A stretch of DNA of 64,000 nt. Origin: Chondrosia reniformis (Eukaryota; Porifera; Demospongiae; Chondrillida; Chondrillidae). The stretch spans positions 1,426,001 through 1,490,000 of the forward strand of contig OX359197.1 of the NCBI GenBank assembly GCA_947172415.1, in the 5' to 3' direction. The position numbers were made by a program, and so were the translations under genes. This document shows positions 39,338 to 55,314 of the stretch, in pieces (positions within the stretch are counted from its first letter, which is position 1; each line of letters starts with the position of its first letter). The notes under the pieces are model-generated. The model saw only the letters and a program-made list of their open reading frames with translations, did not search any database and was not told the DNA's origin.

Positions 39338-42300
39338 CTATTTGAGGTACCATGCTGTCTGGCTTTGGGATTTATTGTACTCAGCAACTGCCTGACGGAT
39401 GGCAATATTAGGTATCAAATTTTCTTTGCTCAGTGGCTTTTGAGCTAGTGGATCCATACCCTCATGCTCTCTTGATGATTTAAGAGCAGCTTCAAGAGCA
39501 GAGCGTTCATATGTGTAACCGTAAGGAGTTGTTACTGGGTCTATCAAAAGATTCATTGTGAGAGGACACAATAAGTGTTTAGGATGGTTACTTGTCCCTA
39601 ACGTCGTGGCTTCTTTCCCCAGGAGCTCTTCCTTCCATTCATTTAATGTCTTTTTGGCATGTGTTTGGGTACACAATTGTGCTTCTCTGTCATATTTATG
39701 CCTGTCCAAGAAATATTCTTCTGCCAAAGCACTATCTAGAGGATCATCCGGTTCTGGCTCTAGAAGTAATCCAAATAGGCAATCAAATATCTGCCGAATG
39801 CTCATATCAGAAATGTAATTGCGATCAAGTACACTGTGGCAAATTTTTCCATGTCCATTGACATTGCAGTGGTATATGGAAGTCACAAATCTAATTTCAG
39901 GCGGATTTTGAGGATAGTTAACAGGGAATTTAGCATACAGTAAGTACACTCCACCTTCATAAGGTGTTCCTTGTGGTCCCACCAAAAGGATTCGCCAAAA
40001 GTCTAGCTGGTCTTCACATGGATATATATGAAGGTTTGGATGTGGATCTTTTTGGTATTTGGAAATTTCTGCAAGTAGTCTTTTGGCTCTTTGAACTGAT
40101 GGTGCTGCTAGTCCAACTGGATTACTTAAACCAGCTCTGTAGAGTATTTTCTGAGGAGAAGTTACTGCTTTTTTCATCTCAACTGGTGGGGGACGTGTTG
40201 GTTGCTGGTCATATGGGTAATTATCGGCATTTTCCAACGTGGCTAAATCCACTTCCGAATTAACTTTAGGTTTTCTTTGGCCCACAAGACGTTCTCTTAT
40301 GCTCAACACAGTCTCCATTTGAAATAATCTCAGAGCTTCAGCATGAGATTTTGGATGAAATGCACATCCATTAGAGGCATGAGCTAAGGCTTTTGCAGTC
40401 TTGTTGCCTTTGCCCAAAAGAACACAATCAAGAACAATACCTTTACTCTGCAGGAGCTGTACAATTTCCAATGGCTTGTGCTTCGATTTTGAGTCTTCTC
40501 CATCACTTAAGCACAATATTCTCAAAATGCTGTCTTTATACTTGACAGAAAAGGCATCTAGTTGTCTAATGGTGTCAAACAATGCATCCCAGAGAGAGGT
40601 ACCCCTTCCCTTTTCAATTGAATCAAGAGCATTTTGAAAAAGACCAATGGTTTCAGATACATTAGTAATCATAGTCACTTGCAAGTCAAACACAGTCAGT
40701 CCAATCGCATGAGGATACCCATAAGCATTAGTACGGTCAGCAAATGTCTTGAAGAGTTGTTTAACTACATCAAGTCGGCTAAAATTTGGAAATACATTAA
40801 TACCCATTGATCCACTTCGATCAACCACCGCTACAATGCATTCTTTTGGCTCTTTTGTAATGACGCCTTCTTTTTTAAAAGTGTGATTGCTACCCAAGCT
40901 AGTTCCCACAGCCTCAGCCAAATCATCAAGCTTATGTGTTTCTTCAATTCCAGTTGTAGGATTGTAGATATAAAACATATCCTGATCTGGGCATTTAACG
41001 CCACCAGTTACCACACCTATCCGTTTCTGGTCCAAATGTGTAAGGTAACCATCACAATTATGTGATCCTTTCAAATCACTTGCTTTGTATATTCTAAATA
41101 TATCTGGGCAGTTAACTAATAATGCATTCGATGTAGGAGGGGCCATTGGTTTGGCTGGCTGTTCTAGGTCTATGCCAGAAGAACTTTCTTCTTTGCTTGG
41201 ATACCAACCAATACACATATCCTCTGTCTCAGGATAAGCAACTAACAACTGGCATATTTTATAATCAGCAATGAAATCTTGCTCACGACACAATACATTT
41301 TCAGAAATTCCTGGAATAATTTCTCCCTGGGACAATTTTTTATGAATGGATTCCATGTCAAATACAATTTGGCGTTGCTGTATATGCCTAACTGGTTCTT
41401 TCATGTGTTGTAAAGAGATGGGGCAAGTAAGCGATACTTCACTCGCATTTCCTTCTTTTGCATCAGTAGCTTGTGTTGAATTGTATATATGAGACCAAAA
41501 CCATGAGGAATATTCAAATATGGTTCCATTGGATTGACATGATTTTATGTCACCTGGTAATAAAGCTTCAAAAACTTCCAAAAGACACTCATTTAGAGCA
41601 ATTCTATGGGGCAACGAAGGCACTTTCTTCCTTAATATAGTTTCCAGTGCTACAATTAGTGGAGGACTTTGAGTAACACGATGAAAAAACCCTAACAATT
41701 CAGCACATTTTTCATCATCAACATCACGATTAGCCAAAATTCTTAGGCAAGAATTAAAATTACACAATCCCTCAGGTGACTGCAGTTTGGATGGATAACA
41801 GGTATTTCCCTTAAATGCATCATCCCAATTGGCCCACTTTTTCTTTGGTTTAATCCACATTTGAATTGTGGAACCAGCTCTAATTTCGTATTCTTCTAGA
41901 CTATGGCCTGAATCAAAAAGCGGCTTACCATATGAAAGACCAATCATTGAGGTTGGTATGTTACGTTTGGCAAAAATTTTCTGCCTCAAGGTAATAGCAC
42001 TATCTTTGCTTGGGTCAACATGTAATGTGTAAGATTTAGTGTGTTTCACAAATATCTGGCATGGCCCTTCATTTGGGTCTAAGGGGGGTAAGGATTCGGC
42101 TGGGTTAAAGTTTTCCATAATGGATGTCATATGGAAAATCACCCAAAAGAAGCTACTACTTGAGGTACAAATAAACCACTCCCTCAGGGTAAGGTTTATA
42201 GAGGCTTCATCAGTGAGTAAAGGTATACCTTCCAAGGTATACAATTGAACTGACACGTCTCTACCTTTCCCTTCCTGCTGTAGAATTTCCTTTTGCATTT

Positions 42301-42688
42301 GGGAGAAGGTTGTCTGATCAGGGTCAAAGTATAATACTTTTTTCACACGTTTTGCATAGAGGGGCTGAAGTGTACAGTAGCTTATTTGAACCATTTCTGG
42401 AGCATCACATGAAACTAATTCTTTAAAAGGACTTGAATTAGAAGAGACCTTGTTTGTAGTTTGATTGTTGACTTTCAGCCCCACAGCTCCATCTTTCCCG
42501 TGTTCATTCTTTAGCAATGACAGCAACTTCCTCCATCTTCGCATCTCCATTTCTGTACAGCCAAAGGATATTTGATCCTTCTCAGTAATGTCTAGAAGAT
42601 CGTTAACACAGGTGACCCCTAATTTTAGGAGATGATCTAAGTATCTTTCAAGCCTGAATTCCTTCAGTTTTTCTATCACCTCATCCAT
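39338..42688 (-). CDS. SAM-UBL-UBL-VWA-UBC-U-box fusion protein (E2/E3 ubiquitin enzyme), intronless
   Basis: A single exon encoding 1,116 residues. Residues 1-62 form a SAM-like helical domain. About 100-172 and 209-280 are two ubiquitin-like folds (the second IFVKHTKSYTLHVDPSKD). About 417-487 resembles a U-box (TCPISLQHMKEPVR). About 617-790 is a VWA domain with a complete MIDAS (DRSGS at 623-627, GTS at 696-698, SDGED at 728-732). About 863-1024 is an E2 domain with catalytic Cys950 (GKICHSVL). The usual HPN triad reads H-C-N at 940-942. About 1036-1108 is a C-terminal U-box (CPLTMNLLIDPV...YGYTYERSALEAAL...LIPN). Expected role: an E2 and E3 in one chain, directing ubiquitin to partners gathered by the SAM, UBL and VWA parts, probably cytosolic. 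Region 310-380 is helical and unrecognised. The start ATG is the first in frame and begins the SAM domain. Confidence 0.9.
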   Translation of the reverse strand: MDEVIEKLKEFRLERYLDHLLKLGVTCVNDLLDITEKDQISFGCTEMEMRRWRKLLSLLKNEHGKDGAVGLKVNNQTTNKVSSNSSPFKELVSCDAPEMVQISYCTLQPLYAKRVKKVLYFDPDQTTFSQMQKEILQQEGKGRDVSVQLYTLEGIPLLTDEASINLTLREWFICTSSSSFFWVIFHMTSIMENFNPAESLPPLDPNEGPCQIFVKHTKSYTLHVDPSKDSAITLRQKIFAKRNIPTSMIGLSYGKPLFDSGHSLEEYEIRAGSTIQMWIKPKKKWANWDDAFKGNTCYPSKLQSPEGLCNFNSCLRILANRDVDDEKCAELLGFFHRVTQSPPLIVALETILRKKVPSLPHRIALNECLLEVFEALLPGDIKSCQSNGTIFEYSSWFWSHIYNSTQATDAKEGNASEVSLTCPISLQHMKEPVRHIQQRQIVFDMESIHKKLSQGEIIPGISENVLCREQDFIADYKICQLLVAYPETEDMCIGWYPSKEESSSGIDLEQPAKPMAPPTSNALLVNCPDIFRIYKASDLKGSHNCDGYLTHLDQKRIGVVTGGVKCPDQDMFYIYNPTTGIEETHKLDDLAEAVGTSLGSNHTFKKEGVITKEPKECIVAVVDRSGSMGINVFPNFSRLDVVKQLFKTFADRTNAYGYPHAIGLTVFDLQVTMITNVSETIGLFQNALDSIEKGRGTSLWDALFDTIRQLDAFSVKYKDSILRILCLSDGEDSKSKHKPLEIVQLLQSKGIVLDCVLLGKGNKTAKALAHASNGCAFHPKSHAEALRLFQMETVLSIRERLVGQRKPKVNSEVDLATLENADNYPYDQQPTRPPPVEMKKAVTSPQKILYRAGLSNPVGLAAPSVQRAKRLLAEISKYQKDPHPNLHIYPCEDQLDFWRILLVGPQGTPYEGGVYLLYAKFPVNYPQNPPEIRFVTSIYHCNVNGHGKICHSVLDRNYISDMSIRQIFDCLFGLLLEPEPDDPLDSALAEEYFLDRHKYDREAQLCTQTHAKKTLNEWKEELLGKEATTLGTSNHPKHLLCPLTMNLLIDPVTTPYGYTYERSALEAALKSSREHEGMDPLAQKPLSKENLIPNIAIRQAVAEYNKSQSQTAWYLK

Positions 42689-45033: not shown

Positions 45034-46173
45034 CTAATTTAATAACTCTTTATTCATAGCCATCATCTTTTGATGTTCCTTTTTTAACTGACTGTAGTCT
45101 GTTTGGAGTTTTGTATATTCCTTCATCAGAAGAGATAGGTGTTCAGTAGTGTCCCTTGTTAGATGCCTTTGGATTTCACGTCTCCTATTCTTAACTGTAC
45201 AACCAACTGAAGAGAATTCACATGCCAACTCAGTCTCTGGACATTGTGAATCAATGTGGTCACGCAGAGTGGCTCTAGTGAGTGACAGTTGGTTATCACA
45301 CTTTTGAGGGCAACGCACTGGCCACTGGCGACATTTTTTGTAATGTGAGGAAATTAACTCTGAGTACCTAAAATATGCAGTGGCCATGGATTTTTGCCTT
45401 ACACCTATCTGGGCTTGGGAGCATCCAGCAGGACAAGGGATAGATCGCTCCTGACAATCATTTTCTAAGTGAGCTTGCAAATCTTCCCTTAATAGCTTCA
45501 CTTGTTTACATTGGGAACAAGTAACACCTTCAAATTTGCAATCTCTCTCCTTATGTCCCTCAACATCTTTCAGGAATCCTTTCCAGGTGCATTCGGCATT
45601 AGGGCAGTGGGTCAGAAGAGATGGAATACGTTGATTTGTTCTTGGGTCCTCGGTTGCCCCATAATTAGGTTTCCTGCAACTGGGGCAATTAGAATTCCAC
45701 TTTTTGATACATGCTCCACACATGGTTTTGGCACAGCACTTTGTTATCTGTGGCTCGTCAGCCAACTCGTGGCAGATTATGCAATCCAACCAATCTTCTG
45801 GCTTTTCAGCAAAGTTATATTGTCTTCCTTTAAAGGAAGCTACTATATTGCCTTTGGAGTAACATATATAATTAGTTTTCGCTGTCATGGTGTGCATTTC
45901 AGTAAACTCCTTCGGAAAGTAGCCTAGGTTCTGGTTAGCTAAAGCAACTTTTGAACCCCTCAACCATTTTCTTCCTGAAGACCACTCACTACTACTCACT
46001 TCAATAATGTCCCCAGGTTTCAAGGAGAGTTCATCATTATTATTTGCATCATAGGGATAAAGGACTTTAACAGTGACACTTTGCTTTGTCTGCAGCTGGC
46101 CAAACATATGGAAATTTGCAAAGCCTCCTTGCATGTGTGATCTATGTTTATGTTGCTGAAAAAACGGATCCAT
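45034..46173 (-). CDS. SH3-RING-TRAF zinc-finger protein A, intronless
   Basis: 379 residues. About 31-95 is an SH3 domain (VLYPYDANNNDELSLKPGD). About 128-168 is a RING-type finger starting CIIC, in which the usual C-x-H-x-x-C reads C-A-K-T-M-C. About 185-330 holds several TRAF-type zinc fingers with Cys/His spacing (HCPNAECTWKG, CKFEGVTCSQC). About 340-379 is a coiled coil (LLMKEYTKLQTDYSQLKKEH). The MATH/TRAF-C domain of classical TRAFs is absent. Likely a ubiquitin-ligase-type adaptor in signalling. A paralogue at 54181-55314 is highly similar except at the extreme N-terminus. The 3' flank is also duplicated. Confidence 0.9.
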   Translation of the reverse strand: MDPFFQQHKHRSHMQGGFANFHMFGQLQTKQSVTVKVLYPYDANNNDELSLKPGDIIEVSSSEWSSGRKWLRGSKVALANQNLGYFPKEFTEMHTMTAKTNYICYSKGNIVASFKGRQYNFAEKPEDWLDCIICHELADEPQITKCCAKTMCGACIKKWNSNCPSCRKPNYGATEDPRTNQRIPSLLTHCPNAECTWKGFLKDVEGHKERDCKFEGVTCSQCKQVKLLREDLQAHLENDCQERSIPCPAGCSQAQIGVRQKSMATAYFRYSELISSHYKKCRQWPVRCPQKCDNQLSLTRATLRDHIDSQCPETELACEFSSVGCTVKNRRREIQRHLTRDTTEHLSLLMKEYTKLQTDYSQLKKEHQKMMAMNKELLN

Positions 46174-49058: not shown

Positions 49059-52000
49059 TTAGTGAGAATGAGTGAGAGATTTACGATGAATGTACATACT
49101 GTAAATATAATTTGAGATCTTTTGATTTGGGTATGTTAGGATGAAGTGTTTTTTTTGGATACTTGGGTAAGAGTAGAAGTTAGGGGATAAAAGTGAGCAT
49201 TCAGCAAAAAGATTACATCTTATATGATTGAAAGCTGGACAGGTTGTAATAAAATGAGTGGAGTCCTCTATTGCACCACAGTTACACAGCTGGCAAATCC
49301 TGCTCTCCAGATCAACCTTAGGGTGTCTCAATCTGCCCTTCTCAATTTCGAGAGGGAGGCACCCACACCTCAGGGCTGCCAGGACTCTCCTTTTATCAAA
49401 ATTACCAGTCCTTATATAGTCATCAGTTGAGGGCGTTCTCTTAATGAGCCTGTAGTCAGCTAACCTGCCCCCAGATCTACTATTTTTGTCTATAGTGTCT
49501 AGTCTTAAGGTCCAATCTTGTAAGGCTAATTTATTTATAAGTTGCATTGTATAACTGAGGAAGTGTGATCTATCATACATGATGGTGTTCATGAAATTAC
49601 TGGGGTTAGAAATAGCAGGATAAGGAGCATCATTGGGGGTAATTAATTTAGAGATTACATCCATAACATTGCTATACCATGTATCTTTGAGGTTAAGTTT
49701 GGCTAAAAACAATAACACCTTCTTGGGCATGCATTTAATAGGGAGATCACAAAGGTGATGCCAGAATTTAATGGTGGTAAATTTAGTATGCCAGTGTAAT
49801 GGCTTCCAGTTTAGTTCACCCATGAGTCCGACAAGAGGAGCAGTCTTACCAAGGCCTATAAATGATCTCATGACATTGTTTTGTACCAATTCAAGGGCCT
49901 GATATTCTTTTGCACCCCAGACATGTGAGCTATAACTAATTATACTTAGGACTAGTGTTCGGTATAGATGACTAAAGACATTATAATGGAAGTTACCATA
50001 CGCTCTAGATTTAGCTGTTAAGAGGTTGGCAGCTTTGGAGGCTTTCTTGGAAATTAATGCAATGGAATTGCTCCAGGTTAAATGTTCATTTAGTGATAAA
50101 CCTAAGTAATTATAATCTTTGGTGTATTCTATGTGAGAGGAGCCTATATGAAATTTGAACTGTGATAGTTTGTGTTGAGTCGGGCGGAAATGAATCACCT
50201 TAGTCTTATTGGTGTTAATTTGGAGTTGCCATTTAGCACACCAAACATGAAGTATATCTAGTAGACGTTGTAAATCATTTACTGATTCGGCACAGGTTGC
50301 AATATCATCTGCATAGAGAAGGCAACTTAATTTATCATTATATATATTGAGGCCAAGCTGGCACTTTTTGAGGTCTATGGCTAAGTCATTAATGTAAATA
50401 TTGAAAAGTGTAGGGGAGAGGGGGCATCCTTGTTTTACACCCTGATCTACCTTAAAGTATTCTGTAAAGGTATCGTTAAGCTTTATTGTGTAGTGGACAT
50501 TAGAGTACATACTTTGAATAACCTTAAGTAATTTGCCTCTTACACCAATCCTCTGTAGTTTATCCCAGAGATGATTTCTAGGGATAGAGTCGAAGGCTTT
50601 CCTAAAGTCAATAAAGCAGACAAATGTGTCTAATTTCATTTTCATTCTAGCTTCAGTTACACTACTTAAAGAGAAAAGATGGTCGGCACAGCTTCTTTGT
50701 TTTCTAAATCCATACTGTTCCTCAACAAGTAAATCGTTAATTTCTAAGTACGAACTCAGTCTTTTGTTAAGTATGTGGCAAAAAACCTTTAGGATGATTG
50801 ATTGTATGGCAATGCCTCTGTAATTTTCAGGGGAGTAGGGGTCATTGTTATTTTTAGGGATAGGGCATATTAAGGTGTTATCCCAAGAGGAAGGAATTAG
50901 TCCAGAGTCAAAGCAATAGTTATAAAGCACGAGTAGGTATCTCTTGACCATTTCATTTTTAAGAATTGAGGTAGTAATTCCATCTAATCCGGGGGATTTG
51001 TTTTCTCCTAATAGGCTAATAGCTAAATCAATCTCCTCAGGGATAATAGTCACATCTAATTCCTCTGGGGGCATTAGAGGGTTAGGTAACTCATTACTGG
51101 GGTCATGATCAGTGTTAATGTGGTTTACATCATAGTCAGGTGTTATTTGGGAGACCAAAGGGTTACCTGCTGGGTTACTACAGTCAGTTGTTCCTGCATA
51201 AATACTTTTGAAGAAGGACAACCAAGAATCTTTAACAACCCTAGGATCATTACTTAGATTACCATTATGCAGTCTAACTTGTCTAGGTATGCCTCTTTTT
51301 TGTGCCCTTTCACTAGCTACTGAGATTCTGTCAAAGGTTTTCCAAAACTTCCTTTGGTTTTTGTACAGCATTCTTAATAGATTCTCTCGTTTCTTCCTAA
51401 TTAGAGATCGTTTAGAATTTCTGACTAACTTATCAAAATGTCTTTGGGCAACCTTGTACTTTATAAACAGGTTCTGATCTGATTTATTTTTTAACCATCT
51501 CCTCTGTGTACTTTTAAGGGTTTTCCTAGCTGCAGTAAGGGAGCTACTCCACCAGGGTTTTTTAGAGGATCTAATGTAACTGGAGGAAGATTTATGTAAA
51601 ACTGAAGTAGTGCGGGGGGCAGGGGGGATAATAGTACTGAGAAATGTACTGTAATTGGCTTCTAGGGAGGGGTATGTAACTATAGAAGGGTCCTGGAGGC
51701 TTTCTATTAGTGTCAAGATTTGATTTAGAGATTGAGAATCAGTGGGAGTATCTGCGATAGGAGAGGGGGGTGAAGGGATTGAAGGTTTACATATTAAAGG
51801 GGTGTGAGATTGTGAGTTGGGACAGAGTTGAATTGCAGAATTTTCATTGTTAACAACAAGATCCCATGTGAGAATAGAGTGGTCTGACAGTTTCTGTAGT
51901 GTATCTAGGTGAGACAGGAGGGCCAATAACTTTGTCATAGTGATAATAGAAAGGTTTTTATATCTATCAACAAACTCGGAGGGCAACAGACAGTAGTCTA

Positions 52001-52895
52001 CTACAGCAGAGCCTTTTGGGGAGATAGAAGTAAAGTCATTGTAGTTACCTTGATTATTGGAGTGGGTTCTTCCATTTAGTAAGCACATGTCACAACTATT
52101 GAGGAATTCCATGAGCTTTACACCATGTGAGTTCACTGTTCTATCGAGAATTTGTCTAGGGAATACATCTTCTAGGGGGTCCTTAAGAGTGCCACATCGG
52201 GCATTAAAGTCACCACAGATAAAGAAGTTACCAAAATCTTGAAATTTGTAGGTCTGGGATATAAGAGTATCAAAAAATTCTACTGATGTGTCACCTCTAC
52301 TAGAGCCTACTGGCGGGAGGTAGCCAACACACAGGACAAAGTCAACAAACATTTGTGTGATACTAGTGAAGCTGAGCCAGAGAATATCATCTACTGAATT
52401 ATCTAGAACATTAACATTAAATGACCTCAATAGTGATTGATTAATAAAGACCCCAACACCACCAGAGCCTCTGGTAGCTTTCTTTGATAACAGTTTCCTA
52501 TTAGAGCCAAACCAAATATAATTATCATGGTTAGAAGGAGGACAATCATTGTTCCTTAAGAAAGTTTCACAAACACAAAGAATATCTAAATCTAGGTGAA
52601 ACATAATATTAGCTATTAAATTGTTACCTAATTTATTGCCTAAACCACTTATGTTCCAAACACTACATTTTATCTGAGTAGTGACTGGGGGGGAGGTAGA
52701 GGATACAGGTATGGAATCTTTCCCGCACACTGGCCTGACCAGTGATGGAGATACGGACAGGGAGGTGACAGTAGCTGATTCTGAGGGGTTGGCAACCTCT
52801 GAGGGTGAGGAACCCCCCTTATTGGACAGCAAGGTGGTGGTAGAAAAGGTGGTCGAGGAGGGTACACAATCTGCTGCCGCGGATCCTGGGGGCAA
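49059..52895 (-). CDS. Retrotransposon ORF2: APE endonuclease and reverse transcriptase
   Basis: 1,278 residues. A Ser/Thr-rich lead is followed by an AP-type endonuclease (CSVWNISGLGNK, CVCETFL, CGDFNARCG, LSDHSILTWD). The reverse transcriptase follows (NKSPGLDGI, YGFRKQRSC, FIDFRKAFDSI, GVKQGCPLSPTLFN, LLYADDIATC). The C-terminus has a zinc-knuckle pattern (CQLCNCGAIEDSTHF...C). The frame is open throughout. It overlaps the end of ORF1 by about 226 bases in another frame, and the endonuclease begins right where ORF1 stops. Confidence 0.93.
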   Translation of the reverse strand: MPPGSAAADCVPSSTTFSTTTLLSNKGGSSPSEVANPSESATVTSLSVSPSLVRPVCGKDSIPVSSTSPPVTTQIKCSVWNISGLGNKLGNNLIANIMFHLDLDILCVCETFLRNNDCPPSNHDNYIWFGSNRKLLSKKATRGSGGVGVFINQSLLRSFNVNVLDNSVDDILWLSFTSITQMFVDFVLCVGYLPPVGSSRGDTSVEFFDTLISQTYKFQDFGNFFICGDFNARCGTLKDPLEDVFPRQILDRTVNSHGVKLMEFLNSCDMCLLNGRTHSNNQGNYNDFTSISPKGSAVVDYCLLPSEFVDRYKNLSIITMTKLLALLSHLDTLQKLSDHSILTWDLVVNNENSAIQLCPNSQSHTPLICKPSIPSPPSPIADTPTDSQSLNQILTLIESLQDPSIVTYPSLEANYSTFLSTIIPPAPRTTSVLHKSSSSYIRSSKKPWWSSSLTAARKTLKSTQRRWLKNKSDQNLFIKYKVAQRHFDKLVRNSKRSLIRKKRENLLRMLYKNQRKFWKTFDRISVASERAQKRGIPRQVRLHNGNLSNDPRVVKDSWLSFFKSIYAGTTDCSNPAGNPLVSQITPDYDVNHINTDHDPSNELPNPLMPPEELDVTIIPEEIDLAISLLGENKSPGLDGITTSILKNEMVKRYLLVLYNYCFDSGLIPSSWDNTLICPIPKNNNDPYSPENYRGIAIQSIILKVFCHILNKRLSSYLEINDLLVEEQYGFRKQRSCADHLFSLSSVTEARMKMKLDTFVCFIDFRKAFDSIPRNHLWDKLQRIGVRGKLLKVIQSMYSNVHYTIKLNDTFTEYFKVDQGVKQGCPLSPTLFNIYINDLAIDLKKCQLGLNIYNDKLSCLLYADDIATCAESVNDLQRLLDILHVWCAKWQLQINTNKTKVIHFRPTQHKLSQFKFHIGSSHIEYTKDYNYLGLSLNEHLTWSNSIALISKKASKAANLLTAKSRAYGNFHYNVFSHLYRTLVLSIISYSSHVWGAKEYQALELVQNNVMRSFIGLGKTAPLVGLMGELNWKPLHWHTKFTTIKFWHHLCDLPIKCMPKKVLLFLAKLNLKDTWYSNVMDVISKLITPNDAPYPAISNPSNFMNTIMYDRSHFLSYTMQLINKLALQDWTLRLDTIDKNSRSGGRLADYRLIKRTPSTDDYIRTGNFDKRRVLAALRCGCLPLEIEKGRLRHPKVDLESRICQLCNCGAIEDSTHFITTCPAFNHIRCNLFAECSLLSPNFYSYPSIQKKHFILTYPNQKISNYIYSMYIHRKSLTHSH

Positions 52896-53773
52896 TGAGG
52901 AGGTACAAAAACCGGGTGAGGCTGTGGGGGGATGTATGATTGATGTTGGGGGGGGAAGTTTGGCCCAGATTTCTGAGAAGGATTTGGGGGCAACCTTTTG
53001 GCTGAGCCAGTGATTTGCAGAACAGGGGGTTGGTCTTTGATGAACCAGGCGATATCCTTACAATTGTTAATAGAAGAGCTGATCTTGTCCAGATATTTGG
53101 AGTTCGTAGTTAACGCAAGAAATTTCCATTTTCCTTTGAAATCAGAGTCTTCTAAGACTTGGGAGACTTTGATATCTTTTATTCCGGAGATTTTCTTAAT
53201 CTTCTTATAAATATCGTCAATTTTCAGACTTTTTTCCACCTTACGAAGGTACTTTGTAACATGATCGTGATTCTCTAAGTCAGGGGCGTTACTCGCTTTA
53301 CTAGAGCTAGGCGAATCAGAGGGAGACTCAGGGCGATGCTGACTAGTGGGAGGGGGTTTGGGTCCAACACTAGCACTGATAGAAGAGTTATCGATGTTGA
53401 CAACGTTAGCAGCTTGAGGGGAGGATAAAGGGTCTTGCTGGGAAGCACTTAGGGGTGTAACGGGCGAATCGCGAGCGGCAGACTTTAGCTCCAGCGATGC
53501 CACCCTTTCAAGCAGATTATTGTTGTGTCGTTTGAGGATTTCAATCTCCTTGAGGAGGGAGGACAGGGTGTTTTCTAGTCTCGTACATTCGGGACAGTAC
53601 CATTTTACCTTAGACTCCAAGATTCTTTTACGAACGTCACTAGAGAGGTCCAGACAATCAAAATGGTACCACGCTTTGCAAAAGCCGTCGCAGGCTACTC
53701 CCTTCTCTGTTACATTCTCAAAACAGGATCCACAGGGGGCAAGGAGTGTAGAGTTCTTTTTCTTTGGAGGCAT
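52670..53773 (-). CDS. Retrotransposon ORF1 with PHD finger
   Basis: 367 residues. An N-terminal C4HC3 PHD-type zinc finger (CGSC...CDGFC...WYHFDC...WYCPEC, about 14-61) is followed by a short coiled coil (LSSLLKEIEILKRHNNNLLERV). Next is a charged linker, a folded segment (about 165-245), and a long Pro/Gln-rich tail. ORF1 proteins bind the element RNA; PHD-bearing forms are known in CR1-like clades. The stop overlaps ORF2. Confidence 0.88.
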   Translation of the reverse strand: MPPKKKNSTLLAPCGSCFENVTEKGVACDGFCKAWYHFDCLDLSSDVRKRILESKVKWYCPECTRLENTLSSLLKEIEILKRHNNNLLERVASLELKSAARDSPVTPLSASQQDPLSSPQAANVVNIDNSSISASVGPKPPPTSQHRPESPSDSPSSSKASNAPDLENHDHVTKYLRKVEKSLKIDDIYKKIKKISGIKDIKVSQVLEDSDFKGKWKFLALTTNSKYLDKISSSINNCKDIAWFIKDQPPVLQITGSAKRLPPNPSQKSGPNFPPQHQSYIPPQPHPVFVPPHCPQDPRQQIVYPPRPPFLPPPCCPIRGVPHPQRLPTPQNQLLSPPCPYLHHWSGQCAGKIPYLYPLPPPQSLLR

Positions 53774-54180: not shown

Positions 54181-55314
54181 CTAATTTAATAACTCTGTAT
54201 TCATAGCCATCATCTTTTGATGTTCCTTTTTTAACTGACTGTAGTCTGTTTGGAGTTTTGTATATTCCTTCATTAGAAGAGATAGGTGCTCAGTAGTGCC
54301 CTCTGTTAGATGCCTTTGGATTTCACGTCTCCTATTCTTAACTGTACAACCAACTGAAGAGAATTCACATGCCACCACAGTCTCTGGACATTGTGAATCA
54401 ATGTGGTCACGCAGAGTGGCTCTAGTGAGTGACAGTTGGTTATCACACTTTTGAGGGCAACGCATTGGCCACTGGGGACATTTTTTGTAATGTGAGGAAA
54501 TTAACTCTGAGTACCTAAAATATGCAGTGGTCATGGATTTTCGCCTTACACCTTTCTGGGTTTGGGAGCATCCAGCAGGACAAGGGATAGATCGCTCCTG
54601 ACAATCATTTTCTAAGTGAGCTTGCAAATCTTCCCTTAATAGCTTCACTTGTTTACATTGGGAACAGGTCACACCTTCAAATTTGCAATCTCTCTCCTTA
54701 TGTCCCTCAACATCTTTCAGGAATCCTTTCCAGGAGCATTCGGTATTAGGGCAGTGGGTCAGAAGAGATGGAATACGTTGATTAGTTCTTGGGTCTTCGG
54801 TTGCCCCATATTTAGGTTTCCTGCAATTGGGGCAATTAGAATTCCACTTTTTGATACATGCTCCACACATGGTTTTGGCACAGCACTTTGTTATCTGTGG
54901 CTCGTAAGCCAACTCACAGCAGATTATGCAATCCAACCAATCTTCTGGATTTTCAGCAAAGTTATATTGTTTTCCTTTAAAGGAAGCTACTATATTGCCT
55001 TTGTGGGGGTAATGTGTTGACTTAGTTTTCTCTGTCATGGTGTGCATTTCAATAAACTCCTTTGGAAAGTAGCTTTGTATGGAGGAAGATCTATAAGGTA
55101 AATTGGCTTTTGAACCCTTCAACCATTTTCTTCCTGAAGACCACTCACTTCTACTCACTTCAATAATGTCCCCAGGTTTCAAGGAGAGTTCATCATTATT
55201 ATTTGCATCATAGGGATAAAGGACTTTAACAGTGACACTTTGCTTTGTATGCAGCTGCAGCTGGCCATGCCGTGTCTTCAGAATGCTTCTTCCAGGTTGA
55301 TCATAATAGTCCAT
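54181..55314 (-). CDS. SH3-RING-TRAF zinc-finger protein B, intronless
   Basis: 377 residues, paralogue of the protein at 45034-46173 with the same order: SH3, RING with C-A-K-T-M-C, TRAF zinc fingers, coiled coil, no MATH domain. The first 28 or so residues (MDYYDQPGRSILKTRHG) are unrelated to those of copy A, although DNA on both sides aligns. The SH3-RING linker also varies (ANLPYRSSSIQS against VALANQNLG). Both frames are open, which suggests both are kept by selection. Confidence 0.9.
   Translation of the reverse strand: MDYYDQPGRSILKTRHGQLQLHTKQSVTVKVLYPYDANNNDELSLKPGDIIEVSRSEWSSGRKWLKGSKANLPYRSSSIQSYFPKEFIEMHTMTEKTKSTHYPHKGNIVASFKGKQYNFAENPEDWLDCIICCELAYEPQITKCCAKTMCGACIKKWNSNCPNCRKPKYGATEDPRTNQRIPSLLTHCPNTECSWKGFLKDVEGHKERDCKFEGVTCSQCKQVKLLREDLQAHLENDCQERSIPCPAGCSQTQKGVRRKSMTTAYFRYSELISSHYKKCPQWPMRCPQKCDNQLSLTRATLRDHIDSQCPETVVACEFSSVGCTVKNRRREIQRHLTEGTTEHLSLLMKEYTKLQTDYSQLKKEHQKMMAMNTELLN

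Follow-up and report, generated by a model that had tools for sequence, protein, structure and literature searches.

The stretch of DNA analysed here (the window) is a 64,000-nucleotide segment of the genome of the sponge Chondrosia reniformis (contig OX359197.1, positions 1,426,001 to 1,490,000), and it contains a gene on the minus strand (39338..42688) in which E2 (ubiquitin-conjugating) and E3 (ubiquitin ligase) domains are fused. The encoded protein, P0001, is 1,116 amino acids long and consists of a SAM domain, two ubiquitin-like (UBL) folds, a helical domain, an internal U-box (U-box1), a VWA domain with a metal ion-dependent adhesion site (MIDAS), a UBC domain, and a C-terminal U-box (U-box2), in that order. 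The fusion was confirmed as real and conserved. P0001 is a new member of a family that is already named in databases but little studied, and it is probably an intact, conserved animal representative of this R795-type "bifunctional E2/E3" family with E2-E3 activity, as judged from its domains and conserved residues. Both the intact, intronless frame of 1,116 codons and the domain order given in a preliminary description of the window were upheld, the SAM domain and first UBL on weak sequence signals. The features of the gene were as follows.

39338..42688, minus strand: coding sequence of P0001, a single exon for 1,116 amino acids, with the domain order given above
42503..42688, minus strand: SAM domain, residues 1-62 (weak profile match and five-helix model)
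42119..42397, minus strand: first ubiquitin-like fold, tentative, residues 98-190 (strand/helix order in the model)
41846..42061, minus strand: second ubiquitin-like domain, residues 210-281 (Pfam ubiquitin at 212-281, E value 1.2e-6)
41453..41827, minus strand: conserved helical domain, residues 288-412 (separate model of residues 285-612)
41222..41446, minus strand: internal U-box or RING-like fold (U-box1), residues 415-489
40910..41221, minus strand: beta-rich part, residues 490-593 (structure models)
40289..40852, minus strand: VWA domain with complete MIDAS, residues 613-800 (fold and MIDAS)
39653..40114, minus strand: UBC (E2) domain, residues 859-1012 (UQ_con, E value 5.6e-34)
39863..39871, minus strand: H940-C941-N942, HCN instead of HPN (family alignment)
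39839..39841, minus strand: codon of the catalytic Cys950 (family alignment)
39359..39583, minus strand: C-terminal U-box (U-box2), residues 1036-1110 (Pfam U-box, E value 4.3e-17)

The UBC and U-box domains, on which the preliminary description had staked its case, were both recovered by domain searches, with the E values listed. Among the matches listed, the solved E2s nearest to the UBC domain of P0001 were UBE2D and UBE2E, and its identity to a UBE2D-like E2 of the same genome was 36%. P0001 shares the fold, the catalytic Cys, and the DDPL motif with the UBE2D (UbcH5) E2s but differs from them in having HCN for HPN, a changed SPA loop, and a UBC domain that lies within a multidomain chain. 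Active-site residues were counted in 215 proteins, comprising the listed rows of three homologue searches and P0001 itself. The first search (query, P0001) gave 55 proteins and scored only the 7,987 candidates sharing the most words; the second (query, a fish member) and the third (query, a eukprot transcript) contributed the best 120 of 294 and the best 120 of 207 matches, respectively. The assignment of Cys950 was borne out by the fold and by its column, which contained C in 214 of the 215 proteins, with nothing aligned there in P0055.

The HPN tripeptide is usual in E2s without strictly defining them, and the meaning of the HPN and SPA residues is taken here as general background. All three of the other E2s of the same genome that were read among the scanned loci had HPN. 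The family members instead had HCN in 207 of the 215 proteins (HPN in 4 and HVN, HAN, HTN, and NPN in 1 each), and HCN was invariant in a 51-row family alignment. HCN in place of HPN is a trait of the family that the preliminary description did not mention. Position 941 was V, A, or T in three relatives and P in five, for which reason a redox role of C941 is kept as only a guess. The loop that reads SPA in the UBE2D-like E2 of the same genome reads ISD in P0001; it was altered in 13 of 15 family rows and kept in two (P0039 and P0040).

U-box2 scored 62.5 bits against a Pfam cut-off of 21.4, and the U-boxes of LubX, PUB12, and CHIP matched it (E values, 2.8e-10 to 3.3e-8), in agreement with its earlier assignment. 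By sequence, it resembles the U-boxes of CHIP/STUB1 and the plant PUBs; P0001 differs from these proteins in having Gln for the CHIP Arg and in having neither TPR nor ARM repeats in its Pfam list.

A homologue, P0002 (1,114 amino acids), was 95% identical to P0001, with 56 differing positions, gaps included. Within domain limits set by the analyst, the differences amounted to 1 of 154 positions in the UBC domain, 1 of 81 in U-box2, 4 of 188 in the VWA domain, and 28 of 222 in three linkers, the UBC domain and U-box2 being the two most conserved parts. This comparison was read at the protein level; dN/dS (the ratio of nonsynonymous to synonymous substitution rates) was computed for one pair of paralogues only, given below. 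Five further homologues (P0004, P0011, P0013, P0021, and P0026) were 1,116 to 1,176 amino acids long, with identities of 37 to 46%, and lay on contigs of >1 Mb. The locus is taken to be a working, presumably transcribed gene without coding introns.

The remaining domains were assigned on profiles and models. The SAM_TNK match (E value, 0.015) was below its cut-off, at 15.8 bits versus 25, and a SHIP2/EphA2 SAM chimera in the PDB matched the start of P0001 (E value, 0.0088); the model of this region contained five helices with predicted local distance difference test (pLDDT) values of 88 to 94. One of seven relatives (P0029) passed the SAM profile cut-off. The first UBL had no Pfam match in P0001 (residues 98-190), and a weak Rad60-SLD match below the cut-off was found in a relative, P0049. 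Ubiquitin chains aligned with residues 208 to 280, in the second UBL. A model of residues 285 to 612 alone had a pLDDT of 89.9 and a predicted template modelling score (pTM) of 0.86, and the Foldseek and VIA lists for it were filled with U-box/RING folds. The U-box1 module was also similar to the SP-RINGs of the SUMO ligases Siz1 and PIAS. The helical (288-412) and beta (490-593) parts had no Foldseek match at an E value of ≤0.001.

The VWA domain scored just below its Pfam cut-off and was assigned by fold and MIDAS. All five MIDAS residues were present (D623, S625, S627, T697, and D729), as had been described from the sequence, and they read DSSTD in 193 of the 215 family proteins, the remainder being mostly unaligned or gapped there. 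The best solved-structure matches of this domain (40289-40852, minus strand) were TFIIH or TFIIH-containing complexes.

Members of the family occurred in sponges and hemichordates (acorn worms), in a large number of ray-finned fish, and in one ciliate and one metamonad. Relatives in the first search included Blepharisma, Amphimedon, and, more weakly, two fungi; in the second, the organism names read were all ray-finned fish; and the third included Oscarella lobularis, Saccoglossus, Glandiceps, Amia, Trimastix, and fish. No tetrapod name was found among the matches listed in the second and third searches. Fish records from Scophthalmus (P0037), Solea (P0089), and Liparis (P0109) were labelled "bifunctional E2/E3 enzyme R795(-like)." The R795-named fish proteins have UBC, U-box, and VWA domains on one chain and an HCN active site, P0037 included, and P0037 was 30% identical to P0001 over 85% of the query (E value, 3.4e-111). 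The Pfam list of P0177 of Oscarella lobularis contained ubiquitin, zf-Nse, VWA, UBC, and U-box, with a SAM-like start by reading of the sequence, and that of P0129 of Channa striata contained SAM, ubiquitin, VWA, UBC, and U-box. These two proteins and the R795-named records overtake the earlier statement that none with this full order was known. The fish family differs from P0001 in that 8 of the 120 listed proteins had extra RING-type Pfam hits (P0062, P0070, P0089, P0094, P0096, P0101, P0104, and P0111).

Two trees were calculated, the first with 10 of the 115 proteins P0057 to P0171, leaving out P0055 and not including P0056, and the second with 44 of the 215 proteins and two paralogues of the same genome. 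Fish formed one clade (100/100), as did hemichordates (100/100); deep branches were weak, and long rows, Amphimedon P0049 among them, were placed with little certainty. Rows labelled "ena" that grouped with P0001 are probably sponges. A bacterial origin was rejected: 19 of 49 pattern-matched prokaryote stretches were E2-like (one at 36% identity to P0001 and 18 at 23 to 31%), and none extended beyond query residues 870 to 1011. An E2-like stretch on a Pseudomonas brassicae contig (L029:5001-5426; 36% identity to residues 870-1011) is possibly eukaryotic contamination.

Several relatives were found in the same genome. The copy on C6 (L024:2812-5900) was the closest paralogue, with 54% identity in its C-terminal part; it kept HCN and the catalytic Cys, lacked UBL2, and lay in two overlapping frames. 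Three frames on C12 of 914 to 939 amino acids (L025:2708-5452, L026:3255-6005, and L027:3547-6366) kept the VWA domain and MIDAS, but their catalytic Cys was replaced by G, G, and F, respectively, and they had no C-terminal U-box. That the genome has three relatives missing both the catalytic Cys and U-box2 adds to what was described earlier. The C12a/C12b pair (dN, 0.116; dS, 0.473; dN/dS, approximately 0.24 by NG86) is under purifying selection. The C12 copies look like pseudo-E2 relatives, which may have a regulatory role.

For P0001, a mechanism can be proposed in which E1 would load ubiquitin as a thioester onto Cys950 of the UBE2D-like UBC domain, and the protein's own C-terminal U-box would help to discharge the E2~Ub, in cis or between subunits. 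Targets would be brought in, most likely, by the SAM domain and the MIDAS-bearing VWA domain, and the UBLs and internal U-box module may be regulators or docking sites. The self-contained ubiquitin machine of the preliminary description stands insofar as both E2 and E3 parts are on one chain; that they function as such is inferred. UBE2O and BIRC6 are E2-E3 hybrids that likewise combine E2 and ligase function on one chain; neither is known to have a U-box, VWA, or SAM domain.

Several points weigh against an active E2-E3 pair of this kind. HCN replaces HPN, which may affect catalysis, and the changed loop (ISD for SPA, altered in most family rows) means that ordinary RING/U-box docking to the P0001 E2 may be weak. 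U-box2 has Gln, as in PUB12, in the column of the CHIP Arg, which is presumably the activating "linchpin" of CHIP; an Arg at this position is present in some U-boxes and does not define them. With a pTM of 0.50, the full-length model does not predict how the E2 and the U-box are placed relative to each other. Finally, five proteins (P0022, P0033, P0038, P0046, and P0049) keep a VWA domain and a UBC domain whose catalytic Cys is present but show no U-box at the C terminus; P0033 and P0038 in particular speak against E2 and U-box2 having to go together.

These five proteins also favour an alternative in which the E2 and the U-boxes are only co-localised, the U-boxes serving cellular E2s or the UBC domain serving other E3s. 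In the tree, P0033 and P0038 were the sister group of the C12 copies, from which it follows that U-box2 was apparently lost before the catalytic Cys and that the parts are separable. A simultaneous loss of Cys and U-box2 in the C12 copies would have suggested that the two work as a pair, but this argument was dropped because P0033 and P0038, which adjoin those copies in the tree, keep the Cys without U-box2. Retention of the SPA loop in only 2 of the 15 family rows, however, argues against a general-purpose E2, and conservation between P0001 and P0002 was highest in the E2 and U-box2. Separate working of the two parts is considered unlikely.

A passage of the gene from a giant virus to animals, or the reverse, concerns origin and is compatible with P0001 being an active E2-E3. 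The name R795 on fish records is, we assume, taken from a mimivirus gene; P0001 is linked to mimivirus R795 by this name and by the fold of other giant-virus proteins rather than by direct sequence comparison. The best BFVD structure match was an E2 ubiquitin-conjugating enzyme of Hokovirus HKV1 (A0A1V0SEK3, 1,329 amino acids), aligned along the P0001 model (1,421 columns; E value, 7.7e-41), and a moumouvirus protein of 1,311 amino acids ranked 45th with 373 columns. These matches, the intronless coding sequence, and the fish gene name favour transfer. Set against it, the Hokovirus protein, compared by structure match alone, was only 14% identical, with a root mean square deviation of 31.3, a value that indicates a match domain by domain and not as one rigid body. 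Three scans of IMG/VR contigs (queries P0001, A1, and P0053) gave no relative, a result that leaves giant-virus relatives possible because the BFVD search shows one. The family also has members as far apart as a metamonad, a ciliate, and animals, with fish and hemichordates in one clade each and weak deep branches. Such a transfer is judged quite improbable.

A bolder synthesis is speculative and would surprise us if correct: an ancient eukaryotic single-chain machine with a private E2-E3 pair and a changed docking loop, in which C941, nine residues before the catalytic Cys, might gate activity by oxidation, with a giant-virus counterpart and with multiplication in animals accompanied by dead regulatory paralogues, as in an innate-immune effector. 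The E2 of P0001 might alternatively carry SUMO, NEDD8, or another ubiquitin-like modifier instead of ubiquitin, a reading with which the SP-RING resemblance of the internal U-box-like module and the unusual HCN active site would agree; it is very unlikely, given that the specifically named E2s in the best 60 of 450 matches were of ubiquitin type, mostly UBE2D/UBE2E. That P0001 is a processed pseudogene or a relic without expression, as its intronless coding sequence might suggest, is extremely improbable in view of the uneven spread of substitutions relative to P0002, the full-length homologues elsewhere, and the stop codon, directly 3' of which no poly(A) tract was found.

Among the papers listed from an open-access library (subscription journals being outside the scope), none concerned this E2-E3 fusion, and "enzyme R795" was found in that library only as a table row of an eel infection study (PMC5560681). 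This row, "probable bifunctional e2 e3 enzyme r795," stood in an immune-defence table next to CXCL10/11 and GBP5, and its fold change, in what appear to be the columns for silver eels, was 0.18 (P = 0.008) (PMC5560681). The transcript goes down, and the row is a lead toward a possible immune link, not evidence of function. The main text of a paper on giant-virus ubiquitin did not contain "von Willebrand," "bifunctional," "domain fusion," "E2 ubiquitin," or "E2 enzyme" (PMC11915834). With just one table row in the open-access literature, the family seems to be an old, widespread enzyme without a described function. E2-E3 fusions allow ubiquitin transfer to be studied without guessing the E2/E3 pairing, and such fusions occur naturally in this family, their active site being altered (HCN) yet conserved, while a single animal also has natural relatives that lack the catalytic Cys.

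Three further features were annotated on the minus strand of the window.

45034..46173, minus strand: SH3-RING-zf-TRAF protein, 379 amino acids (context, probably not a working part)
54181..55314, minus strand: second SH3-RING-zf-TRAF protein, 377 amino acids, 89% identical to the first
49059..52895, minus strand: retrotransposon frame of long interspersed nuclear element (LINE) type, with endonuclease and reverse transcriptase, between both TRAF-type genes

The two RING/TRAF neighbours noted earlier were thus recovered as SH3-RING-zf-TRAF genes and are local duplicates. The ubiquitin-signalling cluster proposed around them did not stand: this family had at least 118 matched stretches across the genome, those listed including none on C6 and none in the vicinity of the C12 paralogues, and an operon-like or functional cluster was for these reasons rejected as unsupported. 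RING-zf-TRAF frames were expanded in dense clusters (for example, C9:5.98-6.02 Mb, C3:6.64-6.74 Mb, and C2:9.34-9.40 Mb), and internal stops were present in 7 of the 118 listed stretches. In the LINE-type element (49059-53773), a frame encoding a PHD finger comes before the endonuclease-reverse transcriptase frame and overlaps it.
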